From Roseococcus sp. (GTDB taxonomy: Bacteria > Pseudomonadota > Alphaproteobacteria > Acetobacterales > Acetobacteraceae), in contig NZ_JAIEQY010000071.1 of NCBI RefSeq assembly GCF_019747315.1, forward strand, positions 1-48,813: DNA of 48,813 bases, written 5' to 3'. This document shows, piece after piece, positions 9,086-31,806 of this stretch. Position 1 is the first letter of the stretch. Every line of letters starts with the position of its first letter. The translations under genes were made by a program, and so were the position numbers. A model generated the notes under the pieces. That model ran no database searches, was not told the DNA's origin, and worked only from the letters and a program-made list of their open reading frames with translations.

Positions 9086-9102
9086 CCTCGCAGGCAGCGA
9101 GG
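9086..9102. promoter_or_regulatory. Activator palindrome upstream of the epimerase gene
   Basis: CCTCGC-AGGCA-GCGAGG is an inverted repeat with 6-bp perfect arms. Its core, TCGCAGGCAGCGA (9088-9100), is the one-mismatch form of the TCGCA-N3-TGCGA palindrome found at every strong -24/-12 promoter of this locus. It ends 8 bp before the -24 box. Confidence 0.55.
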
Positions 9103-9108
9103 CACCCC

Positions 9109-9124
9109 AGGCACGGCGCTTGAT
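9109..9124 (+). promoter_or_regulatory. Sigma-54-type -24/-12 promoter for the epimerase gene
   Basis: AGGCACGGCGCTTGAT keeps GG at -24 and the TTG of the -12 box, with the required 10-base spacing, but has GA in place of the -12 GC. It is the weakest-matching plus-strand member of the set. The expected transcription start is near 9134. Confidence 0.45.
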
Positions 9125-9125
9125 G

Positions 9126-9156
9126 AAGATCCTCCGCAACATCTGCGGAGAATCTT
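9126..9156 (+). promoter_or_regulatory. Hairpin spanning the ribosome-binding site of the epimerase gene
   Basis: Arms CTCCGCA (9132-9138) and TGCGGAG (9144-9150) pair perfectly. After one mismatch, pairing extends through AAGAT/ATCTT, giving a 13-position stem. The GGAG ribosome site (9147-9150) lies in the 3' arm. The predicted sigma-54 start falls inside the 5' arm, so the RNA hairpin may be partial and the palindrome might instead be a DNA site. Confidence 0.4.
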
Positions 9157-9159
9157 CTC

Positions 9160-10098
9160 ATGGCGCTCTATCTCATCACCGGCGGCGCCGGCTTCATCGG
9201 CTCGCATCTGGCGGATGCGCTGATCGCGCGTGGCGACCAGGTCCGCATCCTGGATGATCTCTCCACCGGAAAGCTGGAAAATCTGCCGCGCGGCGCGGAG
9301 TTCATTGAGGGCGATGTGGCCGATGCGGCCATGGTGGGGCGTGCCATGCGGGGTGTCGCCGGCTGCTTCCACCTGGCCGCCATCGCCTCGGTCGCGCGCT
9401 CCAACGAGGACTGGCTGGGCACGCACCGCACCAATCTCACCGGCACGGTCACGGTCCTGGACGCGGCGCGCGCGGAGGGGCGCAAGCCCGTCGTCTATGC
9501 CTCCTCCGCCGCCATCTATGGCAACCCCGCCAGCATGCCGATCGCCGAGAGCACCCAGGCGCGGCCGCTCACCGCCTATGGCGCGGATAAGCTCGGTTCC
9601 GAACTGCACGCCGAGATCGCCTGGCAGGTGCATGGCGTGCCGACCTTCGGTTGCCGCTTCTTCAACGTCTACGGACCGCGGCAAGATCCGCTTTCGCCCT
9701 ATAGCGGCGTGATCTCCATCTTCGCCCGCCGCGTTGCATCGGGCGAGGAGCTCACCATCAACGGCACGGGCGAGCAGGTGCGGGATTTCGTCTATGTGGC
9801 TGATGTCGTGCGGCATCTCCTGGGCGGCATGGCGCTGCTGCGCCGGGCGCCGCAGGCCACGGTGATCAATGTCTGCACTGGGCGCGCGACCTCCCTGCTG
9901 GAATTGCTGGCGGCGCTCGAGCGCGTCTGCGGCCGCGCCGCACGCCGCCGCTTCGGGCCGGAACGGCAGGGCGATATCCGCCTCTCGCTGGGCGACCCCG
10001 CCCGCGCCACCGCCCTGCTCGGGACCAGTGCCACGACGCGGCTTGATCAGGGGCTTGCGGCCACGCTCGGGCTGGTGGATGTCGCGGTCGCGGCCTGA
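9160..10098 (+). CDS. NAD-dependent sugar-nucleotide epimerase (UDP-glucose 4-epimerase type)
   Basis: 312 residues, extended SDR. The NAD loop is ITGGAGFIGSHLADAL, and the catalytic triad is in YASSAAIYG and YGADK (YxxxK). CRFFNVYGPRQDP and GEQVRDFVYVADVV are typical of UDP-glucose/UDP-GlcNAc 4-epimerases. It likely supplies a galactose- or GalNAc-type nucleotide sugar to the exopolysaccharide. It is the first gene of the locus, behind a candidate sigma-54 promoter, and its 3' end overlaps the convergent polymerase gene by 52 bp. Confidence 0.88.
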   Translation: MALYLITGGAGFIGSHLADALIARGDQVRILDDLSTGKLENLPRGAEFIEGDVADAAMVGRAMRGVAGCFHLAAIASVARSNEDWLGTHRTNLTGTVTVLDAARAEGRKPVVYASSAAIYGNPASMPIAESTQARPLTAYGADKLGSELHAEIAWQVHGVPTFGCRFFNVYGPRQDPLSPYSGVISIFARRVASGEELTINGTGEQVRDFVYVADVVRHLLGGMALLRRAPQATVINVCTGRATSLLELLAALERVCGRAARRRFGPERQGDIRLSLGDPARATALLGTSATTRLDQGLAATLGLVDVAVAA

Positions 10099-11444
10099 GC
10101 CAGCACGTATCGGCTGGTCGCGGCGGCCAGTGCCAGCAGGATATAGACCGGCCAGGTGAAGGCCTGGGTGAGGAAGGTGCCGGAGACGATGAAGCCGGCC
10201 ATTCCCGCGAGCACGGCCTGGGCCATGGCATAGGCGGCGGGTTGGTAGTCCACTCCCGTCCGCTCCGGCGACAATTCCCGCGCCGAGGCGATGGACGAGC
10301 GAACCACGCGCACGCACATCCAGACGAAGACGAAGAAGGCCGGGAAGCCGCCTTCCGCCAGCACCGCGAACCAGGTGCTGTGCACCGCCTTGGCAAAGCC
10401 CTCCCACCAATCCGAGTAATAGAAGAAGTTCGGGATGTAGCAGTTGAGGCCGACGCCGGTGAGCGGTCGGCCCACCGCCATGCGCCAGGCAGCGATCCAG
10501 GCCTCCAGCCGGCCCATGGCGCTCTCATCAATCGCGCCGCCCTCAGCGGCACCGCCCGATTGCCGACCGCCCACGCCGGCCGCGACGAAAAGGCCAAGTA
10601 ACCCCAGGGCCCCACCACCGAAGAGCACAGCCTTGGACTGGATGCGCCGCGCGGCGAAGACGCCCAGCACGGCGACGATGCCCAGCAGGCCGCCACGGCT
10701 CTGCGTCTCCAGGATCGCCATGATGATGAGCACAGCGCCGAGCAGCCCGAAGCCGCGGCTCAACAGCCCGGTCTTCGGCGTCAGCACCAGGGCAACCGCG
10801 AAGGAGAGCGGAAACAGCAGGACGAGCGAGAGATCATTCGGATCGCCCAGCACGGAGCCCATGTCGCGCCCGATGGTGACGCGCGTGCCTTCTACCAGAC
10901 CGATCTCGTTGATCGCGTTGGAGATGGCGACGGCCGCCACCAGGATGCCCGCCAGCACGAAGGCCCGCGCGGCCAACGCGAAATCCCCCGGCGCCCGCGC
11001 CAGCGACGCGATGGCGAAGGTCATGATGGCGATCTTCACATAGGTGTCGGTCCAATAGGCAATGGCGATGTCGCGCCCGCTGGCGATGGGCAGCCCAAGC
11101 GTCATCAGCCCAAACAGAATGGCGAAGAGCTTGAGCTCCGGGCTCCAGGCGATGCGGATGCGCTGCGTCACCACCAGCGCGCCCAGCACTACCAGCGAGC
11201 CCACGGCCAGGAGCTGCGGCAGGCGCAACGGGTTCAGCACGGGAAAGGCCTCGTGCAGGCGGAAGAAGGTAAAGAGGATGAAGAGCAGGCAGAGCAGGAA
11301 GGGCGCGCGAAAGGCCAGGATGCCCGCGATCGGCACCATGGCGATGGCCACCGGCACCGCCGGATGCGGCACGAACCAGGAGACCAGCCCCACCACCGTC
11401 ACGGCGAGGAGCACGACCCCGAGCTGAATCCGCCAGCTATCCAT
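10047..11444 (-). CDS. O-antigen ligase / Wzy-type polysaccharide polymerase
   Basis: 465 residues with about 11 hydrophobic membrane spans. The large periplasmic loop carries RLEAWIAAWRMAVGRPLTGVG and AVHSTWFAVLAEGGFPAFF, the Wzy_C signature with its conserved histidine. In this setting the likely role is polymerisation of flipped repeat units in the periplasm rather than lipid A ligation. It overlaps the flippase gene upstream by 8 bp and is the last gene of a three-gene minus-strand operon. Confidence 0.85.
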   Translation of the reverse strand: MDSWRIQLGVVLLAVTVVGLVSWFVPHPAVPVAIAMVPIAGILAFRAPFLLCLLFILFTFFRLHEAFPVLNPLRLPQLLAVGSLVVLGALVVTQRIRIAWSPELKLFAILFGLMTLGLPIASGRDIAIAYWTDTYVKIAIMTFAIASLARAPGDFALAARAFVLAGILVAAVAISNAINEIGLVEGTRVTIGRDMGSVLGDPNDLSLVLLFPLSFAVALVLTPKTGLLSRGFGLLGAVLIIMAILETQSRGGLLGIVAVLGVFAARRIQSKAVLFGGGALGLLGLFVAAGVGGRQSGGAAEGGAIDESAMGRLEAWIAAWRMAVGRPLTGVGLNCYIPNFFYYSDWWEGFAKAVHSTWFAVLAEGGFPAFFVFVWMCVRVVRSSIASARELSPERTGVDYQPAAYAMAQAVLAGMAGFIVSGTFLTQAFTWPVYILLALAAATSRYVLAQAATATSTSPSVAASP

Positions 11445-12819
11445 GCGAAAACCGGGGTGCAGGCAACAGGCCGAGCGCCATTCCGAGCGGCAGGCTGGCC
11501 GCCAGCAGCATGAGACCGATCGGCAAGGGCAGCAGCACGGCGGCCAGGCCCGACCCAGCCAGCGCCGCGATGCGCCACAGCCGGTAATCCAACTGTACCG
11601 CCCGCTGCGAGAACCAGAGGAAGAGGCCGAGCCGGACGCCCTGGGCGAGCAGCGTTGCGAAGATCGCGCCCATCACGCCATGCATGGGGATCAGCAGCAG
11701 ATAGGCCAGCACCGCCACCACGGCGGCCGTTCCGTTCACCAACATCGGGACCGTCCCCGTCCGGCCCATGTAGCAGCCGACATTCACCAAGCTGCCCAGC
11801 GATTGCAGCGCCAGCGCCGTGCAGAGCCAGGGCAGGTAGTCCGCCGCCGCATGATAGGCCGGGGGTGTCGCAAGATGGATCAGCACCGGCCCGCCCAGGG
11901 CCGTGCCCGCCGCGGCAAGCACGACCAGCGCGCCGCCCATTCCCACCACGCGCGCCGTCTGGCGATGTCCATTTTCGGCCTCCAGCAGGGCAATCCGCCG
12001 GGGATACCACCATAATTCGAAGGGCTGCGTCAGCAGGGCGGAGACCAGGGCGATTTTGGCCGCCAGCGCATAATGCGCCAGCGCCTCGGGCGTCACCGCG
12101 CCGGCCAGAAACCAGCGATCCGCCGTGCCGAGCGCGAAGGAAGCGAGGCCGCCCCCCGTCAGCGGCAGGCCATAGGCCAGCAGGCGCGGCCAGATCCGCG
12201 GCGCGAAGGCGATCCCCGTCTCGCGCGATTGGCCCGCCACCAGCAGGAGCGCAGTGAAGCCCGCCGCGACCGCGCCGGCCGCCAGCACCCCGGCGACCCC
12301 GTAGCCCGACCAAAGCAGCGCCGCCGCCAGCCCCGCCTGGGCTGTGCCGCGCACCACCATCACCAGGGACCAGGCCAGCGCCCGTCCCTGCATGCGCAGC
12401 CAGGCCAGCGGCACGCCGATGGCGGCCTCCATCGCCACGGCGGCGCCCAGCAGGGTGACCTCGATGGGCGGCGCCGGCAGGGGCAGCCATGCGCCGGCCG
12501 GGGCCAGCAACACCGCCAGGATCACACCCAGCGCGGCCAGCAGGACGGCCAGGCCCAGCACGCGTGCCGCCATCGCAGCGCCCTCCCGCCCCGGCGCCGC
12601 GCCGAAGCGGTAGAGCGTGTCCACCAGCCCGGCGCCGGCCAGCAGCGCCGCGATCTCCGCGGCGCTGGAGAGCAATTCCAGCCGCGCGAATTCCGCCGGG
12701 GCCAGATGCGCCGTCACCAGCGGCAGGAGCAGCAGGGACAGCCCCTTGGTCCAGGCCAGGGCCATCGCATACAGGGCGGCAGCCCGCAGCGGCGCTGGAA
12801 TGCGTGCAAGGCGCTTCAT
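11437..12819 (-). CDS. Polysaccharide flippase (Wzx/MATE-like)
   Basis: 460 residues, hydrophobic along its whole length with roughly 12-14 membrane segments. It opens with MKRLARIPAPLRAAALYAMALAWTKGLSLLLLPLVT, and the early block LAPAEFARLELLSSAAEIAALL is typical of the polysaccharide biosynthesis (Wzx/RfbX) family. It would flip lipid-linked repeat units across the inner membrane. The chosen ATG overlaps the upstream glycosyltransferase stop (ATGA); a longer frame upstream has no membrane character. Together with the polymerase it marks the locus as Wzx/Wzy-dependent. Confidence 0.85.
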   Translation of the reverse strand: MKRLARIPAPLRAAALYAMALAWTKGLSLLLLPLVTAHLAPAEFARLELLSSAAEIAALLAGAGLVDTLYRFGAAPGREGAAMAARVLGLAVLLAALGVILAVLLAPAGAWLPLPAPPIEVTLLGAAVAMEAAIGVPLAWLRMQGRALAWSLVMVVRGTAQAGLAAALLWSGYGVAGVLAAGAVAAGFTALLLVAGQSRETGIAFAPRIWPRLLAYGLPLTGGGLASFALGTADRWFLAGAVTPEALAHYALAAKIALVSALLTQPFELWWYPRRIALLEAENGHRQTARVVGMGGALVVLAAAGTALGGPVLIHLATPPAYHAAADYLPWLCTALALQSLGSLVNVGCYMGRTGTVPMLVNGTAAVVAVLAYLLLIPMHGVMGAIFATLLAQGVRLGLFLWFSQRAVQLDYRLWRIAALAGSGLAAVLLPLPIGLMLLAASLPLGMALGLLPAPRFSHG

Positions 12820-13976: not shown

Positions 13977-14006
13977 AGCGTCGGTCTCCTTTGGCGCCGT
14001 GCCCCT

Positions 14007-14022: not shown

Positions 14023-14030
14023 GTGCTGTC

Positions 14031-14043: not shown

Positions 14044-14050
14044 AAGGCCC

Positions 14051-16182: not shown

Positions 16183-16566
16183 ATGACCGCCTTCGCCCGC
16201 ATCGCCGCCGATACCCTGAAGATTACCCCGCAATTTTCGCTCGATGCCGAGGGCAGCCTGAAGCTGCGCCCCGTCCTGGAGTCCCTCGCCAAGGGCAGCG
16301 CCGTCCGCGCCCGCCGCGTGGTGCTCGATCTCTCCGAAGTTGATCACATGGACGGCTCGGGCATCGGCGCCATCGCGTTTCTCCGCAAGCGGCTGCTGGC
16401 CGCGGGCCTGAGCCTGGATCTTTCGGGCGCCCACGGCCAGCCGCTGGCTCTGCTGCGCAAGCTCGGCCTCGCCCGCAGCTTCGGCCTGGCGGAGGACCGC
16501 CCCTCCTTCTGGGCCAACCTGCTGCGTCCGCTTCCGGGCAATGGCTGGCGTGGGGCGCAAGCGTGA
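16183..16566 (+). CDS. STAS-domain protein (anti-sigma-antagonist-like)
   Basis: 127 residues. RRVVLDLSEVDHMDGSGIGAIAFLRKRL is the STAS core strand-loop-helix, with the serine (in DGSGIG) at the place phosphorylated in SpoIIAA-type antagonists. Such proteins switch partner proteins by binding. It is the first gene of the exporter operon, so it may link a partner-switch signal to polysaccharide export or to the Hpt/response-regulator pair downstream; no anti-sigma kinase is visible in the window. The end overlaps the next gene by GTGA. Confidence 0.75.
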   Translation: MTAFARIAADTLKITPQFSLDAEGSLKLRPVLESLAKGSAVRARRVVLDLSEVDHMDGSGIGAIAFLRKRLLAAGLSLDLSGAHGQPLALLRKLGLARSFGLAEDRPSFWANLLRPLPGNGWRGAQA

Positions 16567-16919
16567 TCCGCGGCCTCGCCCTGGGCCTGATGCTGGCGCT
16601 CTCCGCCTGCGCCACCTGGCCCGATGAAGGCCACGGCGGCCTCGCCGAACTCCGCCAGCCCTCCGCCAGAGCAGAGGCTGCGCTGGAGGCCCGCCTCACC
16701 TGTGCGCTCCGCCGCGTCTCGGCGCTGGAGGCAGCCAGCCGCGAGCAGGGCCGCGCCACCGGTCAGGCGGGGCTGCTCCGTCTCGCCGCCACTCGCGCGA
16801 CGCGAGAGACGTATGGCAGTCTCGCGCGCGATGCCGGCCGCAGTCTGGACCGGCTGGAGCAAGACGCGGCAAGCCTGCACCGGGTGGTGGGGGGGGCCGC
16901 ACTGCCGGAGTGCACTTGA
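16563..16919 (+). CDS. Small lipoprotein of the exporter operon
   Basis: 118 residues from a GTG start that overlaps the STAS stop. The N terminus MIRGLALGLMLALSAC is a lipoprotein signal with lipobox LSAC and C16 as the lipidated residue. The rest is Arg/Ala-rich and helical in character (EAALEARLTCALRRVSALEAASRE). No known domain is recognised. Its place directly before the Wza-like exporter suggests a periplasmic or outer-membrane accessory of export. It overlaps the exporter start by TGATG. Confidence 0.7.
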   Translation: MIRGLALGLMLALSACATWPDEGHGGLAELRQPSARAEAALEARLTCALRRVSALEAASREQGRATGQAGLLRLAATRATRETYGSLARDAGRSLDRLEQDAASLHRVVGGAALPECT

Positions 16920-19051
16920 TGTTCCATCGCTTGACCGTCCTGATCCTGGTTTTGCTGGTGGCGCTCGGCGCCCCGGCATGGGCGCAGACCGGCCCGGCGG
17001 GCGGCAACGCCAATGGCAGCGCGCGGCTGAATGTCGGAGACATTATCCAGGTTACAGTGCCGGGCGAGGAGGCCTTCGCCCAACCCATCCAGATCGACCG
17101 CGAAGGCCGCGTGAACCTACCGGAGGTCGGCCCCGTGGATGTTGCGGGCCTGACCGTCACCCAGGCGCGCGAGCGCGTGCGCGCTGCCCTCGCTCAATCC
17201 TTCCGGGACCTGGCCCGCTTCAACCTGACCCTGCGCGAACGCCGCCTGCTGCTGAGCGTGGGCGGCTATGTGCGCACGCCCGGGCCGGTGGAGCTGCCGG
17301 CCGGCGCCAATGTGCAGCAGGCCATCGTGGCCGCCGGCGGCCTCAGCCAGGGCGCCCAGCTGGATCGCATGCAGGTCCGCCGCGGCAATGAGGTCATCAC
17401 CTTTGATTACAAGCGCTTCCTGGACACGGGCGCGCGCAACATCCTGCCCACGCTGCGGCCGCTGGACGAGATCTTCGTCCCGGCATCGCCGCTCACCGGC
17501 AATGTGCAGATCGATTTCGACAGCCGCACCCTGGCCGCCGCCGGTGACGCCGCCGAGGACCGCACTTCGGTCCGCGTCTTCGGCGAGGTGCAGAGTGCCG
17601 GCAGCTTCGCCTGGCGCCAGGGGATGACGGTGATGGACGCCATCATCCGCGCAGGCGGCGTGACGCGCTTTGCCGGTACGGAACAGGTCCGGGTGATCGC
17701 GAATGGCGAGCCGCGCACCTTTAACCTCAAGGCCTTCCTGGACAGCGGCAACGCGGCGATGAATCCGCCCGTGCTGGCCGGCACCACCATCTTCGTTCCT
17801 GTGCAGACCGAGGAGGTCCGCCAGGGCCCCCGCGTTATCTATGTCATGGGCGAAGTGGCCCGCCCCGGCGCCTTCGAGGTCCGCCCCGGCACCGGCTTCT
17901 TCGACCTGCTGGCCAATTCCGGCGGCCCGACCCGCTTCGCCGAGGCCCGCCAAATCCGCATCATCCGCGCTGATGGCCGTCGGGTGGAGCCTTTTGACCT
18001 TGGCGCCTTCATCGAGGGCGGGGGTGGCATACCTCCTGCATTGTCCCCCGGTGATGCGATCTTTATCCCCGAAAAGACCCAACAGACGGAGCAGGCCAGC
18101 TGGCTGCGTACCCCGCCCACTCGCGCTGTGCGAGTCCTGGGCGCCGTGCGCGCCCCGGGTCGCTTCGAGTGGTCGAACGAGATGAGCCTGCTCGACCTCA
18201 TCGCCCAGGCGGGCGGCCCGACCGACCGCGCCGACACCGCAGGGGTGCAGATCCTGATGGGCGACCGCGGCCAGAGCCGCCGCTTCGACCTGCGCCGCTT
18301 CCTGGCCGAGGGCGGCCGCGCCGGCAGCCTGCCGGAGATCCGCGCGGGCTACACCATCACCATCCCCGAATTGCCGGCGAGCCCGAGCGACCAGCGCTCC
18401 ACCTGGATCGGCCAGCCGGCGGAGCGTTCCATCTACATCATGGGCAGCGTGGGCTCGCCCGGGCGCTATGCCTTCGAGCCGCAGCTCTCCTTCCTCGATA
18501 TCATGTCGGCGGCGGGTGGCCCGACGGCGGCGGCAGATCTGCTCAACATCCGCGTCGCGCATCGCGGCGAGGGGCGGGACCGCGTGAGCCGGGTGAACCT
18601 CGCTGCCTATTTCGAAAGCGGGGATGACCTGCTGCTGCCGCGCGTGCGGCCGGGTGATGTAATCTTCGTGCCCGACCGCAACCGCAACTGGCTGGAGCAA
18701 TCGCCCGGCAGCACCGTGCGCGTGCTGGGCGCCGTGAACCGCCCCGGCCGCTACCAGTTCAATGACAGCATGAACCTCCTCGACCTGCTGGCCGAGGCCG
18801 GCGGCCCGACGCGGGATGCTTGGCAGGAGCGGATCGTGGTCGTGAACCTCTCCTGCTGCTCGGACCAGGCGAGCAGCTTCGACCTGCCGGCCTTCGCGCG
18901 CAGCGGCGACTTCACCCGCCTTCCCGTCGTGCGCGCGGGGGACACGGTCTATGTGCCCTCCACCACGCAAAGCGGCTGGCGCATTCTGTTCGACGCCTTG
19001 CGGGACGTGCTTCCCATCATTTCCATCATCGCGCTCATCGGAGCCCTCTGA
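16919..19051 (+). CDS. Polysaccharide export protein, Wza-like, with six SLBB repeats
   Basis: 710 residues, about twice the length of Wza. A Sec signal (LTVLILVLLVALGAPAWAQ) is followed by the poly-export domain (LNVGDIIQVTVPGEEAF..., residues 40-110). Six SLBB repeats begin near residues 110, 216, 306, 402, 504 and 598, each with a G-V/A-x-x-PG-x-F/Y-type turn and an AGGPT-type end. A hydrophobic C terminus (LPIISIIALIGAL) may be the outer-membrane helix. It would form the outer-membrane channel and periplasmic tunnel for the polymer. It overlaps the lipoprotein gene upstream. Confidence 0.88.
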   Translation: MFHRLTVLILVLLVALGAPAWAQTGPAGGNANGSARLNVGDIIQVTVPGEEAFAQPIQIDREGRVNLPEVGPVDVAGLTVTQARERVRAALAQSFRDLARFNLTLRERRLLLSVGGYVRTPGPVELPAGANVQQAIVAAGGLSQGAQLDRMQVRRGNEVITFDYKRFLDTGARNILPTLRPLDEIFVPASPLTGNVQIDFDSRTLAAAGDAAEDRTSVRVFGEVQSAGSFAWRQGMTVMDAIIRAGGVTRFAGTEQVRVIANGEPRTFNLKAFLDSGNAAMNPPVLAGTTIFVPVQTEEVRQGPRVIYVMGEVARPGAFEVRPGTGFFDLLANSGGPTRFAEARQIRIIRADGRRVEPFDLGAFIEGGGGIPPALSPGDAIFIPEKTQQTEQASWLRTPPTRAVRVLGAVRAPGRFEWSNEMSLLDLIAQAGGPTDRADTAGVQILMGDRGQSRRFDLRRFLAEGGRAGSLPEIRAGYTITIPELPASPSDQRSTWIGQPAERSIYIMGSVGSPGRYAFEPQLSFLDIMSAAGGPTAAADLLNIRVAHRGEGRDRVSRVNLAAYFESGDDLLLPRVRPGDVIFVPDRNRNWLEQSPGSTVRVLGAVNRPGRYQFNDSMNLLDLLAEAGGPTRDAWQERIVVVNLSCCSDQASSFDLPAFARSGDFTRLPVVRAGDTVYVPSTTQSGWRILFDALRDVLPIISIIALIGAL

Positions 19052-19053
19052 CC

Positions 19054-19701
19054 ATGCAACACCCTTCCGACCATCCCGAGATCGAAGCCCTCTGGCGGGG
19101 CCTGGGCCATGCCGGTTCGGTCGCCATCGCTTCCGCCCAGCCGGGCGAGGGCACGAGCCTGATCGCCGAGGCGATCTGGCGGCGGGCCGAGCATTCGGGG
19201 CGCTCCGCGCTGCTGGTCAAGCTCAATGGCGGGGCGCCGGCTGCCGAGCCGGGCCAGGTGCAGCGCCTGGGCAATCATCCGCTGGGGGTGCTCGCCGCGC
19301 CCGATGCGGCACAGATCGCCGCCTGGCGGGAGCCGGCGCGGCTGCGCGAGGCGATCGCGACCTGGCGCAAGGATTGGGATCTGGTGGTGATTGATGCAGC
19401 CCCAGTGCTGGCCCGTGGCACGCAAGTCCTGCCCGGCCTGACGGCTGCTGCCGCTGCCGAGGCGACGCTGCTGGTGGTGCTGGCCGGGCGCACCGCCGCC
19501 TCCGCCCTGCGCGAAGCGCGGGACCGGCTGAAGGTGGCCGGGGCGGTTCTGGCCGGGGTCGCTCTGAATGACCGCGAAAACCCCTCCCTCGCCATGGAGC
19601 TGGAGCGCCAGGCCTCGCGCTTCGCCCGCTTCCTCCCCGGTTTCGCCGCGCGTATCACGCGCGCCGTGCGCGGCTCCGCCTTGCTGGGCCTGCGGGTTTG
19701 A
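19054..19701 (+). CDS. CpsD/CapB-like P-loop protein with degenerate Walker A
   Basis: 215 residues, with the fold pattern of bacterial tyrosine autokinases (BY-kinases). The P-loop reads SAQPGEGTSLIAEA, where kinases have PGEGKST, so the ATP-binding lysine is replaced by threonine. The Walker A' strand DLVVIDAAPVL is kept. The protein has no tyrosine at all, so the usual C-terminal tyrosine cluster is absent. It lies 2 bp after the Wza-like gene. It may be a structural or regulatory partner of the Wzz-like copolymerase rather than a kinase; that is inference. Confidence 0.7.
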   Translation: MQHPSDHPEIEALWRGLGHAGSVAIASAQPGEGTSLIAEAIWRRAEHSGRSALLVKLNGGAPAAEPGQVQRLGNHPLGVLAAPDAAQIAAWREPARLREAIATWRKDWDLVVIDAAPVLARGTQVLPGLTAAAAAEATLLVVLAGRTAASALREARDRLKVAGAVLAGVALNDRENPSLAMELERQASRFARFLPGFAARITRAVRGSALLGLRV

Positions 19702-20020
19702 CCGCGCCGCTGCTCGACCCCGAGGCCTGGAAGCAGTTGGCCCGCGACCTGCCGGCTGAGGATCTGCGCTATGTCTGCCAATTGCTTGTGACGGATGCGC
19801 GGGCCATGCTCTCCGCCATGACCCAGGCGGAATCGGTGGCGGATCAGGTGGCTTGGCAACGTGCGGCGCATCGTCTGGCCGGCGGTGCCAGCGGCGTGGC
19901 CGCGCTCCCGCTCGAATTCGCTGCTCGTGAGATGATGGAGGAGGCGCCCAACTCCGCTGCCCTGGCGCGGATTGGCGCATTGGTGGAAGCCACCATCGCC
20001 GCGCTGGAAGACGCCGCGGG

Positions 20021-20024
<4 letters not shown>
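19698..20024 (+). CDS. Hpt (histidine phosphotransfer) domain protein
   Basis: 108 residues from a TTG start that overlaps the upstream stop (TTGA). The helix AAHRLAGGASGVAALPLEFAAREM matches the Hpt signature, with H58 as the phosphorylated histidine. Such proteins carry phosphate from a hybrid sensor kinase to a response regulator. It overlaps the sigma-54 response regulator by ATGA, so that protein is the natural acceptor. A candidate donor is the hybrid kinase at 33656-36235, which is interrupted. Confidence 0.8.
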
Positions 20025-21535
<1,511 letters not shown>

Positions 21536-22794: not shown

Positions 22795-24657
22795 ATGTGC
22801 GGCATTGTGGGCATGGTGAACGGGCATCCGGTGGCGACCGATTTGGCGGCCGCCTTGGGCCGCCTCGAATATCGCGGCTATGACTCGGCGGGCGTGGCGC
22901 TCGCCGGTCCGGGTCTGCCGGTGCATCGCATCCTGGGCCGCGCCACCGATCTGGTGGCTGTGCTGGAAGCGGCCCAGCCGCAGGGCCATGCCGGTATCGG
23001 CCACACGCGCTGGGCCACTCATGGCCGCCCCGAACTCCGCAATGCCCATCCGCACAGCCATGGCGGCGTCGCTGTCGTGCACAATGGCATCATTGAGAAC
23101 CATGACGCCCTGCGCCGCCGCCTGCGCGACCAGGGCCATCACTTCAGCTCCGACACCGACTCCGAGGTCATTCCCCACCTGATGTCCCAGGCGATCGCCG
23201 AGGGCCGCAGCCCGATCGAAGCGCTGCTGGAAACCTGCCGCGCGCTGGAAGGCGCCTATGCCATCGCCGCTGTGACCGAGGCCGAGCCCGACCGTCTTCT
23301 GGTGGCGCGCATGGGCAGCCCCCTGGTCGTCGCCCGCGGTGAGGGCGTGACCGCCATCGCCTCCGACCCCGCCGCCCTGGCCGGCATGGCCAGCGAATAC
23401 GCTGCCCTCGCCGAGGGCGAAATCGCCGAGTTGACCGGCGAGAACATCCACTTCCACCCGGTCCGCATCCAGGAGCGCCGCCGCGCCGACCGCCGCCTGC
23501 AGCCGCGCGCCGTGGCGCTGGAGCGCCGCCAGGATGGCCGCCGCGCCAAGCAGCGCAGCTGGCAGCCCGTGGCCGACCCCATGGCCGCCCGCGCCGATGG
23601 CCGCGCCTTCGCCCACCACACCCGCCGCGAAATCGCCGAGCAGCCGGATGCGCTGCGCGCCACCGACGCCGCCCTTCAAGGCCTGGTGCTGCCCGAGGCG
23701 CTGCTCACCTGTGACCGCTTCACCGTGATCGCCTGCGGCAGCTCCCTCTTCGCCGGCGCCGTGGCGCGCGACGCCATCGAGCGCGCGGCCGGGGTGACAG
23801 TGCACCTCGAAATCGCCTCCGAATTCCGCGACCGCGTGGCCCCGCCCAAGGGGGTCGCGATCCTGATCTCGCAATCGGGAGAGACGGCCGACACCATCGC
23901 TGCCATGGCCCGCTTCCGCTCAGCCGGCCTGCCCGCCATCGGGATGGTGAATGTGCGGGAATCCGCCATCGGACGCACGGCGGAGATGCTCTGGCCGGTC
24001 AGCGCGGGGCAGGAGATCGGCGTCGCCGCCACCAAATCCTTTACCTCGCAACTCCTGGCGCTGATGCGTTTCGGCATCGCCCTCGGCGATGCACGCGGCA
24101 CGGGCGATGTGGCCTATCGGGCTGCCTTGGCCCAGGCGCTGGACGCCGCCCCACAGGTCTGCGCGGAGGCCGAGGCAATGGAGCCCATCGCCCGCATCCT
24201 GGCCGAGCGCATCGCCGGCGAAAATGAGGCGCTCTTCATCGGGCGTGGCTGGGGTGCGGCGCTCGCCCAGGAGGGTGCCCTGAAGCTGAAGGAACTCTCC
24301 TACATCCGAGCCGAGGGCTATCCTTCGGGCGAGCTCAAGCACGGCCCCATCGCGGTGATCCGCGAGGGTTCGCCCGTCATCGTTTGCACGCCGGGTGATG
24401 CGGGCCAGGCCAAGGTGCTGGCTAATGCCAGCGCGGTTGCCGCCCGCGGCGCCCATGTGGTGGCGCTGACGGATGCCGCCGGCGCCGAGGCGGCGGGTGC
24501 GACTGCCAGCCAGACCATCACCCTGCCGGGCGATGCGCTGACCGCGCCCTTCGCCCAGTCGGTCTTCATGCAATTGCTGGCTTATCACACGGCGCTGCTG
24601 CTGGGGCATGATGTGGACCGACCGCGCAACCTCGCGAAATCGGTCACAGTGGAATGA
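22795..24657 (+). CDS. glmS: Glutamine-fructose-6-phosphate aminotransferase
   Basis: 620 residues, slightly longer than usual. The N-terminal MCGIVGMV exposes Cys2, the glutaminase nucleophile, and RWATHG and NGIIEN are the glutamine-site motifs. Two SIS domains follow (ACGSSLFAG, SQSGETADTI, then EGYPSGELKHGPIA and the C-terminal PRNLAKSVTVE). It makes glucosamine-6-phosphate, the entry to UDP-GlcNAc. Residues 224-254, between the two halves, are unusually arginine-rich. Its place behind a sigma-54 promoter suggests a dedicated copy for amino-sugar supply to the polymer. It overlaps the next gene by ATGA. Confidence 0.93.
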   Translation: MCGIVGMVNGHPVATDLAAALGRLEYRGYDSAGVALAGPGLPVHRILGRATDLVAVLEAAQPQGHAGIGHTRWATHGRPELRNAHPHSHGGVAVVHNGIIENHDALRRRLRDQGHHFSSDTDSEVIPHLMSQAIAEGRSPIEALLETCRALEGAYAIAAVTEAEPDRLLVARMGSPLVVARGEGVTAIASDPAALAGMASEYAALAEGEIAELTGENIHFHPVRIQERRRADRRLQPRAVALERRQDGRRAKQRSWQPVADPMAARADGRAFAHHTRREIAEQPDALRATDAALQGLVLPEALLTCDRFTVIACGSSLFAGAVARDAIERAAGVTVHLEIASEFRDRVAPPKGVAILISQSGETADTIAAMARFRSAGLPAIGMVNVRESAIGRTAEMLWPVSAGQEIGVAATKSFTSQLLALMRFGIALGDARGTGDVAYRAALAQALDAAPQVCAEAEAMEPIARILAERIAGENEALFIGRGWGAALAQEGALKLKELSYIRAEGYPSGELKHGPIAVIREGSPVIVCTPGDAGQAKVLANASAVAARGAHVVALTDAAGAEAAGATASQTITLPGDALTAPFAQSVFMQLLAYHTALLLGHDVDRPRNLAKSVTVE

Positions 24658-26467: not shown

Positions 26468-28740
26468 GGGCGCTGCTTCTCCTCCTCCTCGCCCTTTCCT
26501 CCGCCTCGGCCGAGACGCTGCGGATTGGGCCGCCCGAGCGCCTGCCGCCGCTGCCCGAACTGGTCCTGCGCGGCGAGAATCGCGGCACGGCCCCCGCCCT
26601 CCTGGTGCTGCGCGTGGATGACCGCCCGGGGGCGCCCTATCACGACCGCGCTAATGTGGAACGGCTGGTCCCGCCCGGCCCCTTCACCCTGCGCCTGCGC
26701 CTGCCCCTGCTGACCACCCCGCGCGGCCGCGCGATCGAGCCCGCCGCGCTGCGTCTGGCCATCGCCGATGCGCGGGACTCCGGCATGCGGCTCTCTGCGC
26801 TGACCATCGAAGGCGCGCCTGAATTGCCCCAGGGCGTGCAGGGTTGGTCCTTCGCACCCGAGGGATCGGCCCCGCTAAGCGGCATGGCGAGTGTGGCGAC
26901 CAACGCCCCGGGCCTGTCCGGCATCAACCCGCGCCATGTGCGCCGCCCGGGCGAGGACCCGATCCTCGCGCGCGGCATGGTGGGCGTCACTCGCTTCGCC
27001 ACGGCGCTGCCGGCGGGCGAGTGGAACATCACCCTATGGACCGAGGATGCCGGCGAATGGGAGACGCTGCCCGCCGTGCTGGAGCAGCGCATCCGCATCA
27101 ATGGCCGCGATGTCGTGCTGTTTCGCCGCAGTCAGGAAGAGTGGGCCATGCAGCGCTATTTCGCCGGGCGCGAGATCGAGGCGACGGAGAGCCCCTGGCC
27201 TGCCTTGGGCGACCGGCGCGGCGGAAGGGTGGAGGCCCGCATCCGCCTTGCCCCCGGGGAGGACCTCGTGGTCGAGCTCGCCGGCCACCCCCAGGCCGCG
27301 ACGCATCTGGCCGCCCTCCTGGCCGAGCCCGGTACCGAAGGGCGCGCCGCTATGGAGGCTCTGCGCGAAGCCCGCTTCGCCGAATCCTGGCCTGTGCTGC
27401 GCCGCCCCTCGGCGCAGACCAGCGCGCGGCTGACCCTCGCTGGCCCTGGCGAGACCCTGGCCGCCCCCGGCAGCGTGGTCGCGCTGCGCTTCACCGCCAC
27501 CGGACCGGCGCAGACTCTCACCCCCGAATGGAGCTGGCGGGGCGAGGCGCTGCCGCTGCGCGCCCTCTGGGGCCAATGGCGCTGGCGGCGCCCGGCGCCG
27601 GAGACGCCCGGGCTGGTCCTTTCGGCCGCGCATCTGCGCGCCGATGCTGAGCGAGTCCCGGTCCCGGCCAACCTGCCGCGCGAGATCACCGCCCTCGTCA
27701 CCATCCCGCCGGGCACGCCGCCGGGTGAGCGGCGGCTGCACCTCAAGGCTGGCGGCGCCATGGCCGAGGCGCGGCTCACCATCCTGCCCGTCACCCGGCC
27801 GGCGCCCGGGCAAAGAGTGGGCGTCTTCCTCGATATCGCGCCGCATCTGGCGCGGGCGCACGCCGCCCACCAAGCCGCCTGCGACCTGGAAACCCTGCGC
27901 GGACTGGGGCTCGACCTCATCGCCCCGCCATTGGCAACCCCGCCCGACCTGGAGGCGCTGCTGGCGGATCTCCACGCGGCGGCGTCCCGGTTCGCGGCAC
28001 CGATCATCGCCTATGCGCCGCTGCGCCGCCTGGAGATGCATCTCGGCCCGCGCGATGCGGCCGCAGCTCTGGTCGCCGCCGAGCGTGCCATCGCCGCCGC
28101 CGGTCTGCCCCAGCCCGTCTGGGTGGTGGCCGATGAGCCTTCCGGTGCCGGGATGGTGGATCGCGTCCGCGCCCTGGTTCTCGCATTACGCGAGGCAGGC
28201 AGCGAAGCCCGCCTCGCCGGCCATCTGAACGACCCCAGCGACGCCGCTCTGCTGCCACTGCTGCACCTCGCGACCGTCAACCAGAGGTACGGCGCCGATG
28301 CCACCGACATCGTCCGGATGCGGGCGGGGGGTGTGCGGCCCTTTCTCTACAATATGCCCCGCTTGCGGCTGGCCGCCGGCTTCTACCTCTGGCGCAGCGG
28401 GGCCGAGGGCCTGGTGCAATGGCATGGCCGTATGCCCACCGCCGATGCCTTCGACCCCACGGACGGGCGGGAGGGCGATGTGCAGTTCCTCTGGCCCACC
28501 CCCGGGCTATGCAGCCCCCCCGATCTCGACGCGGATCTCCTCGAAATCCTGGCTGGCCAGGAAGATCTGCGCTGGCTGGCCTGGCTGGAGACGGCGCCAG
28601 GCGAGGAGGCCGCCGCCCTGCGCCGGCGCCTGCGGCGAGAGGTACCGGCGACTTGGCGCGGTGTGATGGCGCTTCCCCCCGAAGCCGCCGCTTCGTGGCA
28701 GAATGCGATCACGGCCCTGGCACGCCAATTGATGAGGTGA
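26464..28740 (+). CDS. Secreted glycoside-hydrolase-like protein of unknown specificity
   Basis: 758 residues from a GTG that overlaps the upstream stop. A Sec signal (MRALLLLLLALSSASA) is followed by about 350 residues of beta-rich, carbohydrate-binding-like sequence, then an Ig-like stretch and a C-terminal half that resembles a TIM barrel. The segment FLYNMPRLRLAAGFYLWRSGAEGLVQWHGRM, followed by a DP...G.V.FLWPTPG block, recalls the end of DUF4091-type putative glycoside hydrolases. A conserved-looking VVADEPSG could hold catalytic acids. In this operon it may trim or release the polymer in the periplasm. Family and activity are inferences; no close family was recognised with certainty. 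Confidence 0.6.
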   Translation: MRALLLLLLALSSASAETLRIGPPERLPPLPELVLRGENRGTAPALLVLRVDDRPGAPYHDRANVERLVPPGPFTLRLRLPLLTTPRGRAIEPAALRLAIADARDSGMRLSALTIEGAPELPQGVQGWSFAPEGSAPLSGMASVATNAPGLSGINPRHVRRPGEDPILARGMVGVTRFATALPAGEWNITLWTEDAGEWETLPAVLEQRIRINGRDVVLFRRSQEEWAMQRYFAGREIEATESPWPALGDRRGGRVEARIRLAPGEDLVVELAGHPQAATHLAALLAEPGTEGRAAMEALREARFAESWPVLRRPSAQTSARLTLAGPGETLAAPGSVVALRFTATGPAQTLTPEWSWRGEALPLRALWGQWRWRRPAPETPGLVLSAAHLRADAERVPVPANLPREITALVTIPPGTPPGERRLHLKAGGAMAEARLTILPVTRPAPGQRVGVFLDIAPHLARAHAAHQAACDLETLRGLGLDLIAPPLATPPDLEALLADLHAAASRFAAPIIAYAPLRRLEMHLGPRDAAAALVAAERAIAAAGLPQPVWVVADEPSGAGMVDRVRALVLALREAGSEARLAGHLNDPSDAALLPLLHLATVNQRYGADATDIVRMRAGGVRPFLYNMPRLRLAAGFYLWRSGAEGLVQWHGRMPTADAFDPTDGREGDVQFLWPTPGLCSPPDLDADLLEILAGQEDLRWLAWLETAPGEEAAALRRRLRREVPATWRGVMALPPEAAASWQNAITALARQLMR

Positions 28741-28770
28741 GGGGCGCGCCCTGCGCGGGAGACGTGTTTC

Positions 28771-29226
28771 GTGAAGCCGACCCTCTTTGGACTGACCCTG
28801 CTGAGCCTTGCCGCCTGCGGCACGCCCGACCCTCTGCGGGCGATCCCGAGCCATGAGCGCAACATGTTGGAGGCCGAGGCCCGGCTCTCCACCAGCCGGG
28901 ATCGCCGCTCGACGGTGAATGCCATGCTGGCCCGCGCCCGCGCCAATGACCCCAGCCCCCTGGTGCTGCGCTACACCGGCACCACGACCATGCCCGATGC
29001 CGCCCAGCGCGAGGCCATCTCCCGCTTTGCCACGGCCGCGCGCGGCGCCCCGCGCTTGGTGGTGCAAGCCCGCCCTGGCGGCGGCGCAGAAATGCTCGCC
29101 CCGCGCCGCGCCATCGCCGTGGCCCGGCTCCTGGAGGCGGATTTCCAGACCGTGGACATCCAGTTCGAGGCGCAGACGCCCCCCGACACCGTCCGCATAC
29201 TGCTGCCGACGGGAGCCCCCCGATGA
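28771..29226 (+). CDS. Small lipoprotein with OmpA-like fold character
   Basis: 151 residues from a GTG with GGGAG upstream. The signal ends in the lipobox LAAC (LTLLSLAACGTPDP). The C-terminal half (LVVQARPGGG ... LAPRRAIAVARLLEADFQTVDIQF) has the beta-alpha-beta rhythm of OmpA-C-like domains but lacks their peptidoglycan-binding signature. It is placed between the hydrolase-like gene and the Wzz-like gene and overlaps the latter by ATGA. A periplasmic accessory role in assembly is likely. Confidence 0.65.
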   Translation: MKPTLFGLTLLSLAACGTPDPLRAIPSHERNMLEAEARLSTSRDRRSTVNAMLARARANDPSPLVLRYTGTTTMPDAAQREAISRFATAARGAPRLVVQARPGGGAEMLAPRRAIAVARLLEADFQTVDIQFEAQTPPDTVRILLPTGAPR

Positions 29227-30677
29227 ACGCCGCCCACGCGAGCCCGCCGCTCTCCGAGATCTTTCACGCGCTGCTGGCCGCAGGCTGGCGCCGCCGCTAC
29301 GTCATTTTGCTGCCGTTGCTGCTGCTTCCCATCCTGGGCGGACTGATCGGCAGCTTCGTGCCGCATTCCTATGAAACCCGCATGTCCGTGCTTGTGCAGG
29401 AGCCCGGCCGTTTCAATCCCTTCCTGGAGGACCTCTCGGTCCGCTCCAACCTGCGCGACCGGATGGACGGGCTGCGGGCGCTGCTCACCTCGCGCCATGT
29501 GCTGCTGGGTGTCGCGGAGGATCTGGGGATGATCCAGCCCGGCGCCTCAGAATCCGAGCAATCCCGGGCCGTTTCCTCCCTCTCCTCCTCGGTCTCGGTG
29601 CAGCTGATCGGGCAGGAAATGGTGGAACTGCGCTACCGCGCCCGCCGCCCCGAGGGCATTGACCGCGTGCTGGCGCGCATCGGCCAGCGCTTTATCGAGC
29701 GTGTGCGCGGCCCGGAGGACGCCTCCCTGCGGGATAGCGTGAGCTTCCTCGGCGGCCAGATCCAGGATGCGCAGAACGCGCTGAACCAGGCCGAGCAGGC
29801 GCTCTCCAGCTTCAAATCCACCCATGCGGCCCAACTGCCCGACATGCGTGCGGCCAATCTTCAGCGCCTGGCGCAGCTGCGCGAGCAGCTCGCTGAGCGC
29901 GAGGTGCGCCTGGCCGGTGCCGAGGCCGAGATCGCATCCATCTCCACCCGCCTCCTGCAGACCGACCCTGTCCTGGGCCGGCTGGAGCAGGACATCGTCG
30001 CCACCCGCGGCGAATTGGCCCTTCTGCGCAGCCGCTATACCGACGCGCATTCGCGCGTGCAGGCCGTGCTGAACCGGGCCGAAAGCCTGGAGCAGGAGCG
30101 CGACAGACTGCTGACCCGCAGCGGCATCGCGATGGATGATGCCCGGCTGCGCAACATTGCCGCCGTCAGCGTTGCGAGGGGCGACGGCGCACAGCCGCTG
30201 CTGGTCAGCCAGATCGCCATCCTCGACCAGGCCCGGGCGCGCCTCGGCCAACTGCGCGGCGAGACGGAGAATTTGCGCGCAGCGGTTGCCGACCTCTCCC
30301 GCCGCATCGCCGACTCGGGCGAGGTGGAGCGCGAGTTGCGGGGGCTGGAACGCGACGTTGCCGTGCAGGCCGACCTCACGCAGCAGCTGCGCCGCCGCTT
30401 CGAGACGGCGCGCGTGACGGCCGACCTCGCCCGCCAGCAGGCGCCGGAGCGCATCAAGGTGATCGACCGCCCCTTCGAGCCAACGGCGCCGACCAAGCCG
30501 ATGACGATCATCTTCGCCCTGGCCGGGATCGCCGCAGGCCTTGCACTCGGCATGGGCCTCGCCGCGCTGTTCGAGCTGATGGATGGGTCGGTGCGCGGCA
30601 TTCGGGGAACGGAGAAACTGCTCGGCGTGCCGGTCCTGGCCAGGTTGCCCCGCATTGAAGGGAGGCTGGTGGCATGA
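29223..30677 (+). CDS. Wzz/GumC-like polysaccharide copolymerase
   Basis: 484 residues. A first membrane span (about 25-46, VILLPLLLLPILGGLIGSFV) and a last one (about 425-448, IIFALAGIAAGLALGMGL) enclose a long periplasmic part with extended coiled coils (QRLAQLREQLAEREVRLAGAEAEI and others). A proline-rich PFEPTAPTKPMT segment precedes the second span. This is the layout of chain-length regulators. No cytoplasmic kinase domain is fused; the CpsD-like protein at 19054 is the natural separate partner but lacks the key lysine. It overlaps both neighbours by ATGA. Confidence 0.88.
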   Translation: MNAAHASPPLSEIFHALLAAGWRRRYVILLPLLLLPILGGLIGSFVPHSYETRMSVLVQEPGRFNPFLEDLSVRSNLRDRMDGLRALLTSRHVLLGVAEDLGMIQPGASESEQSRAVSSLSSSVSVQLIGQEMVELRYRARRPEGIDRVLARIGQRFIERVRGPEDASLRDSVSFLGGQIQDAQNALNQAEQALSSFKSTHAAQLPDMRAANLQRLAQLREQLAEREVRLAGAEAEIASISTRLLQTDPVLGRLEQDIVATRGELALLRSRYTDAHSRVQAVLNRAESLEQERDRLLTRSGIAMDDARLRNIAAVSVARGDGAQPLLVSQIAILDQARARLGQLRGETENLRAAVADLSRRIADSGEVERELRGLERDVAVQADLTQQLRRRFETARVTADLARQQAPERIKVIDRPFEPTAPTKPMTIIFALAGIAAGLALGMGLAALFELMDGSVRGIRGTEKLLGVPVLARLPRIEGRLVA

Positions 30678-31789
30678 GCGGCGCGGTGATCCATGTGGTG
30701 CAGCATCTCAGCCCGGGTGGGCTGGAAGTGATGGCCCTCGAACTCGCCCGCGCGCAGCAGGCGCTTGGGCAGGAGAGTTTCGTGCTGAGCCTGGAGGGCG
30801 GGCTGGAGGAGGCCCTGGCGCATTGGCCGCGCCTGGCCAGCCAGCGCGGGCAGCTGCTCTTCGCCGGCAAGCGCCCGGGGCTCGACCTGACGCTGGTACC
30901 ACGGCTGGTGGCGCAGTTCCGCCGCCTGCGCCCGGCCTGCGTGCATACGCATCATGTCGGCCCCATGCTCTATGCCGGCAGCGCCGCGCGGCTCGCCGGC
31001 GTGCCTGCGCGGCTGCACACCGAGCATGACGCCTGGCACCTGGCCGAGCCCAGGCGCCGCCGGCTGGTGCGTACGGCGCGCGCCCTGATGGCGCCAGTGA
31101 TGATCGCCGATGCCCCGCATGTGGCCGAGGCCGTGGCCGAAGCGCTGGGGGGCAAGCCGCCCATCGTGGTCATGAACGGCGTGGACACTGCGCGGCTCAA
31201 GCCGGGTGACCGCGCGATAGCACGCCGCGCGCTGGGCCTCCCGGAGGATGTTCGATTGCTGGGCATCGCGGCGCGGCTCGAACATGTGAAGGGCGTGGAT
31301 GTGGCGCTCGATGCGCTGCGCCACCTGCCACGCGACGTCCATTTGGCCATCGCCGGTGGGGGCGGTGAAGCGGCGACGCTGCGCTCATTGACCATTGCGC
31401 ATGGCGTGGTGGATCGGGTCCATTGGCTGGGCGTCATGAATGACATGGCGCGTTTCTATCCGGCGCTCGATCTGCTGCTTGTGCCATCGCGGCATGAAGG
31501 CCTGCCCTTGGCGCCGCTGGAGGCCCAGGCTTGCGGCATTCGCGTGGTGGCGACGCGCGTGGGCGGCACCGCAGCCGGTATCTGCCCGGAGACCGGCTTT
31601 CTCGTGCCGCCCGAGAACCCGGAGGCCATGGCCGTCGCCATTCGCGCCGCCTTGGTCGTGGATGGCGACCCGCGCCCCTTCGTGCTGCGCGCCGCGAGCC
31701 TCGGCGCGGCTGCACGCGCATATCTGGGCCTCGCCGTATCAGTTTTCGCGCGTCCCATCGCAAGCTGCGAGGCAGCGCGCGAAAGCTGA
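30674..31789 (+). CDS. Glycosyltransferase family 4
   Basis: 371 residues. IHVVQHLSPGGLEVMALELARA is the GT4 entry motif; VVMNGVDTARLKPG, LGIAARLEHVKGVDVAL and PSRHEGLPLAPLEAQACGIRVVA form the donor site (E-x7-E). It is the last gene of the glmS operon and overlaps the Wzz-like gene by ATGA. Its last dozen codons (...ARPIASCEAARES) coincide with a large palindrome that looks like the activator site for the next promoter, so coding and regulatory functions overlap here. Confidence 0.87.
   Translation: MSGAVIHVVQHLSPGGLEVMALELARAQQALGQESFVLSLEGGLEEALAHWPRLASQRGQLLFAGKRPGLDLTLVPRLVAQFRRLRPACVHTHHVGPMLYAGSAARLAGVPARLHTEHDAWHLAEPRRRRLVRTARALMAPVMIADAPHVAEAVAEALGGKPPIVVMNGVDTARLKPGDRAIARRALGLPEDVRLLGIAARLEHVKGVDVALDALRHLPRDVHLAIAGGGGEAATLRSLTIAHGVVDRVHWLGVMNDMARFYPALDLLLVPSRHEGLPLAPLEAQACGIRVVATRVGGTAAGICPETGFLVPPENPEAMAVAIRAALVVDGDPRPFVLRAASLGAAARAYLGLAVSVFARPIASCEAARES
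31744..31784. promoter_or_regulatory. Nested activator palindrome inside the 3' end of the GT4 gene
   Basis: A perfect TCGCAAGCTGCGA (31758-31770) sits exactly at the centre of a larger inverted repeat with arms TTTCGCGCG (31744-31752) and CGCGCGAAA (31776-31784). A degenerate copy, AGGCAGCGCGCGA (31770-31782), ends 8 bp before the -24 box, as at 16109-16121. The outer arms could also form a transcript hairpin. Confidence 0.55.
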
Positions 31790-31790
31790 A

Positions 31791-31806
31791 CGGAACCCGC
31801 CTTGCA
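31791..31806 (+). promoter_or_regulatory. Sigma-54-type promoter for the GT2/priming transferase operon
   Basis: CGGAACCCGCCTTGCA has GG at -24 and a perfect TTGCA at -12 with correct spacing; the -24 box departs from the consensus at two positions. It begins 2 bp after the upstream stop and lies 35 bp before the ATG at 31842. Confidence 0.5.

Follow-up and report, generated by a model that had tools for sequence, protein, structure and literature searches.

The exopolysaccharide (EPS) locus on a 48,813-nucleotide contig of Roseococcus sp. (Acetobacteraceae, Alphaproteobacteria; NZ_JAIEQY010000071.1), the whole of which is called the window here, seems to be a sigma-54 regulon of a SypG/LuxO-like activator which is controlled by a phosphorelay and works from operators next to the promoters; a probability of roughly three in four is given to this reading. 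Its putative operators are palindromes of the form TCGCA-N3-TGCGA, which are conserved, linked to the regulator, helically phased and located beside sigma-54-like elements. The system looks like SypG/LuxO and probably works like it. Activators of sigma-54 polymerase are usually described as acting via DNA loops from remote enhancers about 80–150 bp or more upstream. The locus comprises an epimerase-like gene, Wzy- and Wzx-like proteins, glycosyltransferases, an SLBB exporter, GlmS, a chain-length-like protein and a sugar transferase.

An earlier reading of the letters alone (the sequence-only reading) had located five palindromes beside GG-N10-GC or GG-N10-GA elements. A scan of the window found them perfect at 14031, 16097, 22722 and 31758 and with one mismatch at 9088, and a sigma-54-like −24/−12 element adjoins each of the four perfect copies as well as the one at 9088, where the −12 box reads GA, as had been allowed for. 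In the genome (5.19 Mb in 407 contigs, the window being contig 399) the strict palindrome occurs at six places, four of which are inside the window (binomial p 1.2e-7), and the reversed pattern at three. The remaining two strict palindromes (contigs C210 and C397) are without a convincing sigma-54 element within 40 bp. A perfect palindrome combined with a sigma-54 score of at least 17.5 at a gap of 5–22 bp, the gap being the number of base pairs between palindrome end and −24 box, was observed five times, compared to zero in all 150 first-order Markov simulations. A loose search with up to two mismatches gave 43 copies where 46 were expected and was discarded as being at chance level; the signal is therefore carried only by the strict form. 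Taken together, genome scan, family scans and simulations show that the motif pair is not equally common at random loci, an outcome which the sequence-only reading had named among its refutations.

Since two of the four perfect palindromes are flanked by sigma-54-like elements on both sides, and with the site at 9088 included, there are seven promoter candidates (P1–P6 and P8) and a doubtful one (P7). The minus-strand promoter at 16089-16074 and the possible site at 28696 had been overlooked before. Counterparts are listed for two congeners (G014 and G015) and for two genomes of a second genus, g37 (G056 and G199).

P1, 9088..9124, plus strand: palindrome 9088-9100 (one mismatch), gap 8, −24/−12 element AGGCACGGCGCTTGAT at 9109-9124; faces the epimerase-like gene 9160-10098; the −12 box is GA, not GC. 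Counterparts: gap 8 in G015 (one mismatch), 10 in G056.
P2, 14031..14066, plus strand: palindrome 14031-14043, gap 7, TGGCCCGCCGGTTGCA at 14051-14066; faces a family-2 glycosyltransferase gene 14095-15009. Counterparts: gap 7 in G015; in the homologous divergent region, 39 in G056 and 20 in G199.
P3, 14007..14043, minus strand: palindrome of P2, gap 8, TGGCACAGGGCCTGCG at 14022-14007; faces a family-4 glycosyltransferase gene starting at 13976. Counterparts: gap 8 in G015, 10 in G056.
P4, 16097..16146, plus strand: palindrome 16097-16109, degenerate copy 16110-16121, CGGCACGGAGGTTGCT at 16131-16146, gap 21 (copy 9); faces the operon running from a STAS gene to the activator, i.e. the regulator's own operon. 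Counterparts: gap 21 in G014 (one mismatch) and G015, 28 in G056 and G199.
P5, 16074..16109, minus strand: palindrome of P4, gap 7, CGGCATGCGGCCTGCG at 16089-16074; faces a family-4 glycosyltransferase gene starting at 16042. Counterparts: gap 8 in G014, 7 in G015.
P6, 22710..22759, plus strand: degenerate copy 22710-22721, palindrome 22722-22734, gap 9, TGGCACGCGGCATGCC at 22744-22759; faces glmS 22795-24657. Counterparts: gap 9 in G014, 18 in G015, 29 in G056 and G199 (one mismatch in G199).
P7 (doubtful), 28696..28733, plus strand: TGGCAGAATGCGA, gap 9, TGGCACGCCAATTGAT; precedes a small unknown gene and the chain-length gene. Counterpart: G015, with two mismatches. The site lies inside the coding end of the upstream open reading frame, and its conservation may be coding.
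P8, 31758..31806, plus strand: palindrome 31758-31770, degenerate copy 31771-31782, CGGAACCCGCCTTGCA at 31791-31806, gap 20 (copy 8); faces a glycosyltransferase gene 31842-32990. Counterparts: gap 20 in G014 (one mismatch) and G015; no palindrome in the stretch of the G056 region compared.

The sequence-only reading had given a distance of 7–9 bp between the −24 box and the nearest palindrome or its degenerate copy. This describes the palindrome itself at 9088 (8 bp), at 14031 in both directions (7 bp on the plus and 8 bp on the minus strand) and at 22722 (9 bp). For the palindrome itself it does not hold on the plus strand at 16097 (21 bp) and at 31758 (20 bp), where the short distances of 9 and 8 bp, respectively, belong only to a degenerate copy adjoining the palindrome (judged by eye). 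At 22722 and 9088 such a degenerate copy abuts the far side of the palindrome, likewise by eye. Relative to predicted starts, which were placed 12 bp after the −12 GC as is the standard assumption, the window palindromes are centred at about −40 to −54, and this is not the spacing of a classical remote enhancer. The two divergent regions (118–140 bp) hold no further palindrome copy within one mismatch in the window.

Both congeners possess the regulator of the window (20021-21535) with high identity (89 % in G014, 87 % in G015). Counterparts of all seven promoters were found in G015 and of four in G014, namely those whose regions fall in its contig (16097 on both strands, 22722 and 31758); at the corresponding places this contig holds no homologs of the genes 9160–15009. 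Palindromes with one mismatch are those at 16097 and 31758 in G014 and at 9088 in G015. The gaps equal those of the window to within 1 bp with the sole exception of 22722 in G015 (18 instead of 9 bp), where the sequence resembles a 9-bp tandem duplication. Thus the unusually short distance to the −24 box, already pointed out from the letters, is real and kept within the genus.

In genus g37 the order of the locus is kept in G199 over the stretch compared, and in G056 the locus lies in two separate parts on a single contig; the protein identities to the window amount to 35–67 % (GlmS was left out of the protein comparisons with relatives and with Plesiomonas). The comparison of sites in G199 covers the regions at 14031, 16097 and 22722. 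The 14031 region of G056 contains TCGCAAATTGCGA with a gap of 10 bp on one strand and 39 bp on the other. In G199 it contains TTGCAATTTGCAA with a gap of 20 bp on one strand, and on the other strand the −24 box abuts it (by eye). This palindrome fits the Vibrio LuxO box TTGCA-W3-TGCAA at a homologous place, whereas the window itself uses TCGCA-N3-TGCGA. As the g37 sites lie at the same places with altered letters and gaps, it is the place that is kept, while the sequence drifts between TCGCA and TTGCA and the gap shifts by roughly one to three turns of the helix.

Scans of family genomes were compared to the pattern read backwards, a control in which k-mer frequencies are not exactly matched. 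The exact pattern with a gap of 6–10 bp gave nine matches in six of 200 genomes (control 1). TCGCANNNTGCRA-N5..35-TGGCN7TTGC gave 21 matches in 20 of 397 genomes (control 1), and the TTGCA form 17 matches in 14 of the 397 (control 0). Ten of these 38 pattern matches are located within 1 kb of a regulator homolog (G056, G063, G087, G102, G104, G149, G241, G273, G288 and G369). A homolog above 500 bits was present in 12 of 14 tested genomes with a match of the TCGCA form and in four of 17 hand-picked congeners without one (Fisher p 0.001, a value that ignores kinship); one of these four, G257, matches in the TTGCA form, and the TTGCA-form genomes G368, G195, G237, G057, G129 and G121 were left out of this test. 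Three matches are probably due to chance: that of G093, with a gap of 14 and no homolog at 1e-110, that of G074, whose homolog stands elsewhere in the regulator tree on long branches, and that of G185, which lacks a strong homolog; the first two were kept in the pattern-scan and phasing counts, and G185 is in neither. In G087, on a contig (contig 100) other than that of the regulator, a site of the same kind precedes a gene with a PEP-CTERM-like tail (L071, 10336-10373, minus strand).

A scan of a named collection is not an independent test, since seven of its 12 matches repeat those of the family scan letter for letter (L119, L120, L121, L122, L124, L126 and L128). Two transketolase-like matches and one from Dehalococcoidia were set aside on reading as coding or accidental. 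The other nine precede, as judged from the translations, GlmS-like (3), glycosyltransferase-like (3), STAS-like (1) and HNOB-like (1) genes and one for a 77-aa protein. In Polymorphobacter arshaanensis (L125, 5768-5826, minus strand) two tandem palindrome-like copies lie before an apparent HNOB heme/NO sensor gene, with a sigma-54 element at gap 31.

A locus on a plasmid of Plesiomonas shigelloides (NZ_CP027853.1; L149, locus 1-19242) carries 13 homologs of the EPS genes, STAS and SLBB included, at 31–67 % identity; the count leaves out two weak glycosyltransferase rows, and for one of the 13 the match spans just 32 aa. A SpoIIE phosphatase is present, and neither tblastn nor annotation revealed a regulator homolog in the 32 kb. 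No palindrome within one mismatch precedes its sigma-54-like sites within 160 bp. As a single locus, it fits the idea that the sites follow the regulator rather than the genes, and it suggests an old horizontal spread with a swap of the regulator.

The distances between palindrome and promoter are not evenly distributed. For 27 loci of other genera, which were picked by regulator homology, sigma-54-like elements were located first and then the best palindrome within 60 bp; 14 of the loci have one with at most one mismatch, giving 18 cases with gaps of 7 (five times), 11, 18, 19, 21, 28 (three times) and 29 bp (six times). A Rayleigh test at 10.5 bp gave p 5e-6 for the raw data (n = 18; the floor of the simulation), p 0.005 with each combination of genus and gap counted once (n = 10) and p 3.5e-5 with the eight gaps of the window's genus added, all of which are to be read with the reservation that the gap clusters were noticed before the formal phase test and the p-values are not independent of that choice. 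The best period in these loci is 10.4–10.7 bp. The pattern matches, many of them the same sites, gave p 5e-6 (again the floor) for 37 promoters and p 4e-4 when collapsed (n = 23); G107 (gap 32) had been dropped from the 38 because a nearer palindrome stands at 7 bp on the same promoter. Their best period over 4–20 bp was 20.0, the top of the range, which reflects two clusters. The 12 collection matches, including the three that look accidental, fall at 7–9 or 27–31 bp although 5–35 bp were permitted. Gaps of 7, 20 and 29 bp place the palindrome centres near −40, −53 and −62, respectively. This phasing, with its alternatives at 18–21 and 28–29 bp, goes beyond the sequence-only reading, as do the second genus and the kinship to LuxO and SypG.

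The regulator and the genes that might constitute its phosphorelay are encoded in or next to the locus, together with other genes of the proposed regulon:

16183..16566, plus strand: single STAS-domain protein, SypA-like, first gene of the activator operon (PF01740, 47.8 bits).
16910..19051, plus strand: SLBB polysaccharide export protein (TIGR03027, 194 bits; cut-off 180).
19698..20024, plus strand: Hpt phosphotransfer protein (PF01627, 25.3 bits; cut-off 24.6), overlapping the activator start by 4 bp.
20021..21535, plus strand: LuxO-like response regulator with receiver, sigma-54 AAA+ domain with GAFTGA, and Fis-type helix-turn-helix (INPSTIYRRL).
22795..24657, plus strand: GlmS, glutamine--fructose-6-phosphate transaminase (TIGR01135, 602.8 bits; cut-off 418).
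33656..35902, minus strand: hybrid histidine kinase (Pfam: HisKA, HATPase and receiver domains, no Hpt) which may provide the input of the relay.

The activator with its GAFTGA loop and Fis-type domain had been recognised from the letters, as had the site before its own operon. It is an NtrC-family response regulator (PF00072, PF00158 and PF02954 all over cut-off). The top model is LuxO (NF041946, 546–548 bits), followed by NtrC (382) and PrsR (370); the LuxO score is below the cut-off of 800, and the protein is thus LuxO-like, not LuxO proper. The best solved structure by sequence is that of LuxO (5ep0). For LuxO of V. cholerae eleven critical residues are described, six of them in helix 3 (Ser, Ile, Tyr, Arg, Lys and Leu) (PMC11407668). 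When aligned by residue spacing, the helix STIYRRL of the window has five of the six helix-3 residues, to which the comparison was confined, and Arg in place of Lys. A rule connecting K or R in this helix with TTGCA or TCGCA was dropped, as K-type regulators also use TCGCA.

In vibrios luxU, which encodes an Hpt protein, and luxO are adjacent, and the overlapping Hpt and activator genes of the window resemble this pairing. Directly 3′ of the activator, and probably in the same operon, lies an RlmL-like rRNA methyltransferase gene (21539-22702), of which no homolog was found among the locus genes of G056 or G199. The locus also contains a large conserved open reading frame (26464-28740) without a Pfam match at E 0.5, which is present in Plesiomonas too. 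A LexA-type repressor gene (36348-37097, minus strand; LexA_DNA_bind and Peptidase_S24) is located just outside the locus.

One of the closest known systems is that of Vibrio fischeri, where a polysaccharide locus of 18 genes is described as having sigma-54 operons, SypG as its LuxO-like response regulator, a relay through an Hpt domain and SypA as a single-STAS protein (PMC10162802; PMC4517449). In its layout the window likewise has a SypG-like regulator inside an EPS locus and seven sigma-54-like elements beside palindromes. The upstream activating sequence given for SypG is TTCTCANNNTGMDWN, with TTCTCA where the palindromes of the window have TCGCA. Its sites reported at qrr1, not at syp promoters, are in the regions −60 to −106 and −106 to −175, whereas those of the alphaproteobacterial window lie near −40 or −53 (in relatives −62). 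With LuxU/LuxO the window shares adjacent Hpt and LuxO-like genes, the 5-N3-5 geometry of the palindrome (the LuxO box is reported as TTGCA-W3-TGCAA) and, as aligned by spacing, residues of the recognition helix. LuxO sites of V. fluvialis are described at −89 to −120; elsewhere a distance of about 100 bp to the sigma-54 site is given for LuxO, and an IHF site is described in between. The targets of LuxO are small RNAs.

In PrsK/PrsR, too, a response regulator is encoded close to EPS genes, and sigma-54 PEP-CTERM promoters are preceded by a conserved site, comparable to the site before the PEP-CTERM-like gene of G087. However, the motif described for PrsR ends in TTTACA and has a longer spacer (mean 62.8 bp, s.d. 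10.6, minimum 32; PMC1569441), and the 370 bits of the window regulator are below the cut-off of TIGR02915 (502.6), so that identity with PrsR was rejected. FleQ is reported as a sigma-54 activator binding near the promoters of flhA, fliE and fliL without looping (PMC6120874), as is proposed for the window; it is described as having no agreed consensus site and as not being activated by phosphorylation, and a footprint paper refers in its title to upstream or atypically downstream sites. NmpR of Myxococcus xanthus is described with GCGCA-N5-TGCGC palindromes and with paired sites 14 bp apart (PMC11841059), differing in its spacer of five and its targets, and the part of its description consulted mentions no promoter-abutting series. 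Activator sites in Clostridiales are reported mostly 100–250 bp away; in Desulfovibrio the biggest distance class is given as within 100 nt, and short distances are therefore not unheard of. A literature search, mostly of titles and abstract openings, brought up nothing that was recognised as an account of a LuxO-like system with phased sites next to the promoter.

In the proposed mechanism the hybrid kinase (33656-35902) probably passes phosphate via the Hpt protein (19698-20024) to the regulator (20021-21535), which in its phosphorylated form would bind the conserved and regulator-linked palindrome TCGCA-N3-TGCGA. Its DNA-binding dimers would sit on a single helical face beside the −24 box, with centres at about −40 or −53 and, in other genera, also at about −62. 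The AAA+ hexamer could then remodel the adjacent sigma-54 polymerase, and a long DNA loop would not be needed: the position of the sites close to the start signals at helix-turn spacings suggests a switch that touches its neighbour directly rather than via looping. From these sites both directions of the two divergent regions would be served, as would the operon of the regulator itself, implying positive feedback.

Several observations weigh against this mechanism. The abutting form with a gap of 7–9 bp is not universal, the gap of 28–29 bp being commoner in several other genera, and 13 of the 27 regulator loci of other genera are without a local site within one mismatch. In 25 genomes the TCGCA form gave 20 matches at gaps of 5–35 bp and three each at 36–66 and 67–97 bp (control 0 for the two longer ranges), a comparison biased towards the short range by most of the genomes having been chosen for a match in it (G014 is not from that scan). 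According to a ChIP-seq table for V. cholerae, the closest mapped start is 28 bp away from the LuxO site of qrr1, 39 bp from that of qrr4, 78 bp from that of qrr3, 504 bp from that of qrr2 and 32 bp from a fifth LuxO site; proximal LuxO sites may thus not be unique to the family of the window, provided that the starts listed are the qrr starts. The one close paralog in the genome (G000:C298:3578-4972; L043, L129), 62–67 % identical to the activator by two measures, has a nearly identical helix (STIYRKL) and could be the binder. Moreover, stretches of the paralog group show no site within one mismatch despite the similar helix, so similarity of the helix alone does not predict sites.

The palindrome might accordingly be the operator of this C298 paralog or of another regulator, the local LuxO-like protein using other sites, which we consider unlikely. 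The paralog even scores above the activator on the LuxO model (571 vs 546 bits), and a regulator tree (37 rows, four loci left out), in which the window regulators form one of several lineages on a partly unresolved backbone, does not decide between the two. However, the sites are found within 1 kb of a strong regulator homolog in the ten other genomes named above, and 14 stretches of the paralog group from 12 genomes have no palindrome-promoter pair within one mismatch, several congeners possessing only this type; the scan with gaps of 6–10 bp found nothing in G003, G007 and G010, where the paralog type is the only strong homolog. It is slightly less probable still that binding of the LuxO-like regulator to the palindrome chiefly serves to compete with the sigma-54 polymerase or to limit it, as autorepression, with activation coming from distal or solution contacts. 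FlbD can autorepress at some promoters, the palindrome is close enough to the −24 box for an overlap with the edge of the polymerase to be possible, and the minus-strand −24 box of G199 directly abuts it. Steric blocking would not need helical phasing at about 7–11, 18–21 and 28–29 bp, though, and the two divergent regions of the window offer no other copy within one mismatch.

That the pairing of motif and promoter is an artefact of composition in a window of 69 % G+C would be a very improbable outcome. The chance-level count at two mismatches and the three of 12 collection matches which look coding or accidental are what such an artefact would produce, but no simulation reached the observed pairing, the position of the sites is conserved across genera despite changed sequence, and reversed-pattern controls gave 1 and 0 compared to 21 and 17 matches.

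The reading of promoter-adjacent activation may extend to a sigma-54 activator family without a remote enhancer, in which the operators stand on a discrete helical ladder (−40, −53, −62), one assembly touches the polymerase and a single 13-bp site serves two divergent promoters; this is held tentatively, at somewhat less than even odds. Class II and class I CRP sites on sigma-70 promoters occupy the same neighbourhood as these centres. If true, operators would be locked to the −24 box in helical register across genera, with the gap shifting by about one to two turns, which would make the contact geometry between activator and polymerase directly testable. The locus would furthermore provide a concrete candidate regulon (EPS genes, GlmS, STAS and a PEP-CTERM-like gene) for a LuxO-like phosphorelay outside the vibrios, and short, self-contained sigma-54 promoters would be available for study.

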